Assembly: GCA_902604695.1 (NCBI GenBank)
Contig: CACKZT010000008.1
Coordinates: 1 to 43,013 of the forward strand
DNA: 43,013 nt
Reading direction: 5' to 3'
Origin: an uncultured Pelagibacteraceae bacterium
Lineage (GTDB): Bacteria > Pseudomonadota > Alphaproteobacteria > Pelagibacterales > Pelagibacteraceae
In this document: in pieces, positions 28,134 to 29,240 of the stretch
How positions within the stretch are numbered: the first letter of the stretch is position 1
How the letters are laid out: each line of letters begins with the position of its first letter
Translations under genes and position numbers: made by a program
The notes under the pieces: generated by a model
The model's database searches: none
Told to the model about the DNA's origin: nothing
What the model saw: only the letters and a program-made list of their open reading frames with translations

Positions 28134-29240
28134 TTATTTAAAAATAGTTATTAAAATTGCAATTAACACAAGAGATAGGCCTAAATATATTTGTTTGTTA
28201 AGTCGTACGTGTCTATGAATTTTATGTAATAATGGTTCTTGGTAGCTTAATCCTTTATCGCTTAAATTAGAAGATTTAACGAAACCTTTATTTCTCCCAA
28301 TTTTTAAAAATTTAACTTTTCTATTATCATAGATTTCTTCACCAGATAAATTTTCAAAAAATTTTAGATTTTCAATAATAGAATTTTTAACATTATTAAT
28401 TATAATTTCTGGATCTCTGTGTGCACCACCTAAGGGTTCATCTATAATTTCATCTATGATACCAAGATTTAATAAATCTTTAGCTGTAAGCTTCATAGCT
28501 TCAGCAGCTTGCAACGCTTTGCTTGGGTCTCTCCAAAGTATTGATGCACAGCCTTCTGGTGATATCACAGAGTATATTGAATTTTCCAACATAATTACTT
28601 TATTTGATGACGCAAGTGCAATAGCCCCTCCAGAGCCACCTTCTCCTATTATTATAGCGATGTTTGGAACTTTAAGGGACATACAACACTCTATAGAGTG
28701 AGCAATAGCAGATGCTTGACCTCTTTGCTCTGCACCTATTCCAGGATAAGCTCCGGGTGTATCGACAAAAGTAATCACAGGAATTTTAAATCTATTAGCT
28801 AATTGCATTAATCTCACACATTTTCTGTAGCCTTCTGGTTTCATCATTCCAAAATTTCTTTCAATTCTACTATTTAGATCTTCACCTTTTTCTTGGCCGA
28901 TTACTAAAACTGATTTATTTTCAATAATTCCAAAACCGGCTATGACTGATTTATCATCACCAAAATATCTATCACCAGATAAAGAAGTGAAGTTAGAAAA
29001 AATTTTTTCTATGTAAAATTTGGCTCTTGGCCTGTCTTCGTGTCGAGCAACTAAAGTTTTTTGCCAGCTATTTAGATTGGAGTAAGTTTTTTTTAATAAA
29101 TTATTTATTTCCTCTTGAGTACTTCTTATTTTTTGAGTGTCCACTTCAGATATACCCTCGGATCCAAAAGGGTTTTTAAGACCATCTACTTCATCTTCTA
29201 AATTTTTGATTTCTTTTTCGAATTCTAAGTAATTTTTCAT
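28134..29240 (-). CDS. accA: Acetyl-CoA carboxylase carboxyltransferase alpha subunit, with hydrophobic C-terminal tail
   Basis: Transfers the carboxyl group from biotin to acetyl-CoA with AccD, the first step of fatty-acid synthesis. The crotonase-like core is clear: RAKFYIEKIFSNFTSLSGDR, GQEKGEDLNSRIERNFGMM, PVITFVDTPGAYPG, IGEGGSGGAIALA and SVISPEGCASILWRD. The core ends near residue 320, the usual full length (about 317). Here 48 more residues follow, ending in IYLGLSLVLIAILITIF (about 351-367) as a probable single membrane anchor after the basic HKIHRHVRLNK. The start MKNYLEFEKEI is the family N-terminus. A strong Shine-Dalgarno upstream serves a five-codon minicistron instead of this ATG. 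Confidence 0.96.
   Translation of the reverse strand: MKNYLEFEKEIKNLEDEVDGLKNPFGSEGISEVDTQKIRSTQEEINNLLKKTYSNLNSWQKTLVARHEDRPRAKFYIEKIFSNFTSLSGDRYFGDDKSVIAGFGIIENKSVLVIGQEKGEDLNSRIERNFGMMKPEGYRKCVRLMQLANRFKIPVITFVDTPGAYPGIGAEQRGQASAIAHSIECCMSLKVPNIAIIIGEGGSGGAIALASSNKVIMLENSIYSVISPEGCASILWRDPSKALQAAEAMKLTAKDLLNLGIIDEIIDEPLGGAHRDPEIIINNVKNSIIENLKFFENLSGEEIYDNRKVKFLKIGRNKGFVKSSNLSDKGLSYQEPLLHKIHRHVRLNKQIYLGLSLVLIAILITIFK

Follow-up and report, generated by a model that had tools for sequence, protein, structure and literature searches.

A predicted C-terminal membrane anchor on the acetyl-CoA carboxylase subunit AccA of Pelagibacterales

An AccA with a C-terminal extension

The analyzed stretch of DNA, hereafter the window, comprises 43,013 nucleotides from an uncultured Pelagibacteraceae bacterium, and its minus strand encodes at positions 28134..29240 (stop codon included) a protein of 368 residues, with an ATG start. 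The gene is accA, for the acetyl-CoA carboxylase carboxyltransferase subunit alpha. In fatty-acid synthesis, acetyl-CoA carboxylase (ACC) catalyzes the committed step; the bacterial enzyme is usually regarded as soluble. Among the NCBIfam models, PRK05724 is the best match to the protein, with 437.1 bits over a cut-off of 357, and TIGR00513 reaches 386.4 bits over a cut-off of 319.3, both at the equivalog level. The motif EGGSGGA (residues E200-A206), which we take to be the active-site region of AccA, is invariant across a 22-sequence alignment of the order that includes the window AccA. Ranked by AccA protein, the best 80 of 364 named loci belong to Pelagibacteraceae, Pelagibacterales, SAR11 or Candidatus Pelagibacter and are 72-81% identical. 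Judged from its sequence, the ORF is a true AccA, and it is the single AccA of the window's assembly (815 kb, 78.6% complete).

The PRK05724 match is limited to residues 1-317, which delimit the AccA core (28290..29240, minus strand). The best three PDB chains of AccA (2f9y, 2f9i and 8uxz) align over residues 3-315 of the window AccA, with ends at 312-315, and the likeness to known bacterial AccA covers the whole 317-residue core. The alignment stops only a few residues short of the ends of these chains, whereas the window AccA runs on for about 51 residues and ends in a predicted membrane helix. The extension described in an earlier note on this DNA is thus real, but longer than the 48 residues given there.

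Anatomy of the tail

Three segments follow the core, all on the minus strand: a polar linker (residues 318-336; 28233..28289), a juxtamembrane basic stretch LLHKIHRHVRLN (residues 337-348; 28197..28232) with a net charge of +3 and three histidines besides, and a predicted membrane helix (residues 349-368; 28137..28196) that ends the protein. In the AlphaFold2 model, the linker is predicted to be disordered (pLDDT <50 for residues 319-336) and leads to a basic helix of 11 residues (337-347) and a separate hydrophobic helix of 19 residues (349-367). The mean pLDDT rises along the tail from 49 (331-340) and 78 (341-350) to 88 (351-360) and 90 (361-368), and the first turn of the basic helix is uncertain. 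The model as a whole is middling, with a mean pLDDT of 78.9 and a pTM of 0.75 from 22 sequences, and represents the chain without membrane and partner chains.

The terminal segment QIYLGLSLVLIAILITIFK (residues 350-368) has a predicted insertion dG of -1.5 kcal/mol, and its Kyte-Doolittle mean over 17 residues peaks at 2.77. The dG values were calculated with a re-typed copy of a published position-dependent scale, which gave plausible control values for poly-Leu (-7.5), poly-Ala (+1.5), poly-Ser (+10.9) and a Leu4/Ala15 peptide (-0.2). The most hydrophobic segment of the core has a dG of +3.8, so the protein is predicted to possess neither an N-terminal signal nor a second span. By prediction, it also displays two other hallmarks of a C-tail anchor, namely a single span at the extreme C-terminus and positive charge before the span, as expected for an N-in orientation. 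Both the basic stretch and the hydrophobic helix at the very C-terminus had been pointed out in the earlier note, and both are borne out.

Conservation of the tail within Pelagibacterales

A segment predicted to insert into the membrane (dG<0) lies at the AccA C-terminus in all 177 loci of the order, which represent two families and ten genera and were drawn from overlapping collections that are not independent. They comprise 47 loci from the two families (L001-L047, among them that of the window), 80 named loci (L048-L127) and 50 further loci chosen for the remaining genera and for the lowest-scoring AccA genes (49 plus L221). One script parsed 174 of the 177 and yielded 159 distinct C-termini; the motif was missed in L052, L228 and L229, the tails of which were read separately. 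The dG is below zero in each of the 159 distinct sequences, ranging from -4.92 to -0.59 with a median of -2.18, and the value of the window is moderate. In all 159, moreover, the span keeps a length of 19-23 residues and a positive flank, with a net charge of at least +1 in the 15 preceding residues (mean +2.88), and it is followed by only 0-5 residues.

Tail loss was not seen among the 177 loci. AccA is present in 189 of the 197 genomes of the order sample, those beyond the 177 loci being assessed by frame length only; the frames measure 362-428 aa among the full-length matches listed and 367-406 aa in those re-searched. The linker varies with lineage. In the window's genus it mostly reads GF(S)KSS...GLSYKE, in the second family GLFSxKxxxAN.VLDxKYGK, and the remaining genera have other forms. 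One AccA of genus g7 (L221; G090:C38:46183-47118) keeps the membrane tail and differs in the active-site region, where GEGSGNSANALAV replaces GEGGSGGAIAL and TPGPYP replaces TPGAYP; its E-value is 2.5e-111, compared to 2.1e-131 for G065 of the same genus.

A lone tail of this kind would be unremarkable, because similar ends arise by chance: shuffling the order tails gave dG<0 near the end in 161 of 3180 cases, and such an end is also present in 10 of the 119 window frames of at least 60 aa, real membrane proteins included. Its presence in 177 of 177 order loci rules chance out. For the same reason a sequencing error or a lone oddity was rejected, including the case, allowed for in the earlier note, that the tail is absent from all relatives and stems from a read error.

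Constraint on the linker and the span

Pooled over 45 non-overlapping close pairs and given without a significance test, Ka/Ks is 0.10 for the core, 0.26 for the linker (alignment columns of window residues 318-348) and 0.40 for the span, the least constrained part of AccA. These values and the identities below refer to the window and 141 loci, 142 proteins in all; the 36 omitted loci are all from genus g6, to which the figures do not extend. Linker and span both look constrained at the sequence level, less strongly than the core.

These data bear on the idea that the anchor is a neutral relic, gained once in the order's ancestor when the frame was read through into AT-rich DNA downstream, and tolerated unused. 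AT-rich DNA readily encodes hydrophobic stretches, as the 10 window frames ending in one illustrate, but a useless tail would have been kept in every one of the 177 loci, with no loss, in an order of streamlined genomes, and Ka/Ks lies below 1 in both linker and helix. We regard this origin and fate as highly improbable.

Among close relatives with a core identity of 0.8-0.9, the mean identity of the helix is 0.37, and between distant pairs the aligned span is only about 0.16 identical, a low value that may stem in part from poor alignment of the tail. Hydrophobicity is nevertheless retained, as expected of a membrane span more than of a packed surface. The partial conservation of helix residues in close relatives could suit a soluble packing element that folds back on AccA or AccD, or joins carboxyltransferase complexes through hydrophobic helix contacts. 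However, the divergence between distant pairs at constant hydrophobicity, the disordered linker predicted before the helix and a charge pattern matching that of an inner-membrane span all argue against packing, which is very unlikely.

A weakly constrained hydrophobic tail would also fit a degron, so that the C-terminus might chiefly be a handle for proteolysis by which a membrane protease, e.g. FtsH, sets ACC levels, with membrane contact serving turnover instead of location. In E. coli, a protease yet to be identified degrades AccA depending on growth phase, and the amount of AccA is linked to lipid flux (PMC12977641). A degron, however, would have no need of a constrained linker, nor of the 19-23 residue span and positive flank that all 159 distinct sequences keep. 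We consider turnover unlikely to be the chief role of the tail, although such a handle is compatible with anchoring.

Absence of the tail outside the order

The class sample contains 385 genomes, 359 of them with AccA, of which 354 lie outside the order and were all covered (149+66+80+59). No tail like that of Pelagibacterales was found in these 354, of which 130 were judged by the C-terminus itself and 224 by the open frame. The directly read C-termini (59, with L156 not parsed, plus 59, 1 and 11) are devoid of a span. The 224 remaining genomes have frames shorter than 350 aa, except G456, compared to the full-length order matches listed, which start at 362 aa; this length criterion is blind to short anchors of about 25 residues. 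Every class frame of at least 350 aa had its C-terminus read, again except G456, whose match runs into a contig edge. In G377, G441, G448, G456 and G519 the family match is incomplete and the C-terminus lies outside view; for three of these, the coordinates place the break at the edge of a contig. The longest or early-stopping tails outside the order are non-hydrophobic, e.g. those of 16-17 residues in L246, L272, L295 and L376.

In the phylum sample (140 genomes, 130 with AccA), a span is absent from 25 further long-frame AccA genes, of which 20 come from other classes; shorter frames, below 350 aa, were assessed by length, and the matches of G643 and G669 are partial. One AccA from another class of the phylum (L338 in G685) bears a 34-residue extension rich in Thr, Gln and Pro at its C-terminus, in which a hydrophobic span is absent. 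Within these limits, we rejected a general alphaproteobacterial feature. The comparison of C-termini suggested in the earlier note thus separates the order, with the tail in 177 of 177 loci, from other alphaproteobacteria, with none in the 130 read.

Other proteins of acyl synthesis

We also considered that such a tail might be common to other subunits of ACC or proteins of acyl synthesis, which was rejected for AccD, AccC, an AccB-like protein, FabD and a FabG-like protein in a few relatives. No such tail occurs in the 8 of 18 AccD loci that were parsed, in AccC and the AccB-like ORF directly upstream of it in five genomes, or in FabD and its FabG-like neighbor in two genomes; AccB and FabG are names that we presume from position and sequence character.

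AccD was found in 18 of the 19 Pelagibacterales genomes searched; the one genome in which it has no match is the window's own, assembled to 78.6% completeness. The AccD of Pelagibacteraceae is divergent, as all 13 matches in the window's family score below the TIGR00515 cut-off of 317 bits, at 243-314. In two AccD loci of genus g5 (L312 and L313), TTGGAALQEN stands where L298 and L300 have SGGARMQE. In addition, each genome of the second family of the order (f2) matches the carboxyltransferase family at up to five further places, mostly in frames of about 500-550 aa, compared to one match per genome in the window's genus (in two pieces in one genome).

Discussion

Taken together, the AccA of Pelagibacterales is probably a C-tail-anchored membrane protein, in which sequence and structural model predict a cytoplasmic core, a flexible linker, a basic helix and a single terminal membrane helix. 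The best reading of the tail is that of a cis-encoded anchor that would hold acetyl-CoA carboxylase at the inner membrane. The tail-anchor interpretation of the earlier note is in this way backed by prediction and by conservation across the order, and as a whole, with its conjecture that the site lies close to phospholipid synthesis, it is supported in part.

Concerning membrane insertion, topology and stoichiometry, we infer that the tail would be inserted post-translationally, like bacterial tail anchors, and that the catalytic core would stay in the cytoplasm with the membrane helix oriented N-in and C-out. The carboxyltransferase is an alpha2-beta2 complex, so each complex would hold two anchors. 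AccA alone would then bring AccD, and through AccD the biotin carboxylase half, permanently to the inner membrane. Permanent placement is favored because a built-in anchor is not switchable by partner binding alone; it may be combined with control of the AccA level by a membrane protease. More speculative is the purpose, which might be that malonyl-CoA is made at the membrane, or that the activity or stability of ACC responds to the membrane.

The architecture resembles that of known bacterial tail-anchored proteins, which have no N-terminal signal and a single span at the extreme C-terminus (PMC3087755, PMC6794478). The inward-facing ones have positive residues just before the span, as in the AccA tail (the same sources). 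In the text of the S. coelicolor survey of such proteins, the word “carboxylase” does not appear (PMC3087755). For model tail anchors in E. coli, neither YidC nor SecYEG was strictly required; some of the moderately hydrophobic ones localized independently of SRP, whereas the most hydrophobic ones required SRP and one required DnaK/J (PMC6794478). Special insertion machinery may likewise be unnecessary for the AccA tail.

Membrane placement of ACC has counterparts elsewhere. In plants, the alpha-carboxyltransferase is held at a membrane, the plastid inner envelope, by one transmembrane span of CTI1-3, and in the light this docking attenuates the synthesis of fatty acids (PMC7712654). The plant span, however, lies in a separate, light-regulated protein that binds the coiled-coil C-terminus of an alpha-carboxyltransferase itself without a predicted span (PMC7712654), whereas the span of Pelagibacterales is within the AccA reading frame and a long coiled coil is absent from the model. 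YhcB, an inner-membrane protein of E. coli, contacts AccA and thereby ties ACC to the membrane; this contact was detected, by crosslinking, only in early stationary phase, and sequestration of AccA was proposed (PMC12977641). YhcB again is a separate protein, compared to the span built into the AccA of Pelagibacterales. The polar protein YqhY of B. subtilis has been suggested to restrain ACC (PMC5437119). In view of these three cases, control of ACC through the membrane is plausible, in either direction.

Taken singly, AccA and tail anchors are known kinds of protein. Among the matches listed from the open-licence PubMed Central literature (titles and starts of abstracts), there is no description of an AccA that is itself tail-anchored throughout an order. 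Many SAR11 protein records must contain the tail, so others may have noticed it and not remarked on it.

Our wider proposal, to which we give about even credence, is that fatty-acid synthesis in Pelagibacterales begins at the membrane, with ACC permanently bound through the AccA anchor, an order-defining gain through which the state of the membrane would bear on the supply of malonyl-CoA or the turnover of AccA. If this is true, a single subunit carries the docking for which plants and E. coli use separate proteins, and would represent an independent route to it. It would also be a direct case, open to experiment, of lipid supply controlled in space in the streamlined cells of SAR11, one of the most abundant cell types of the ocean.
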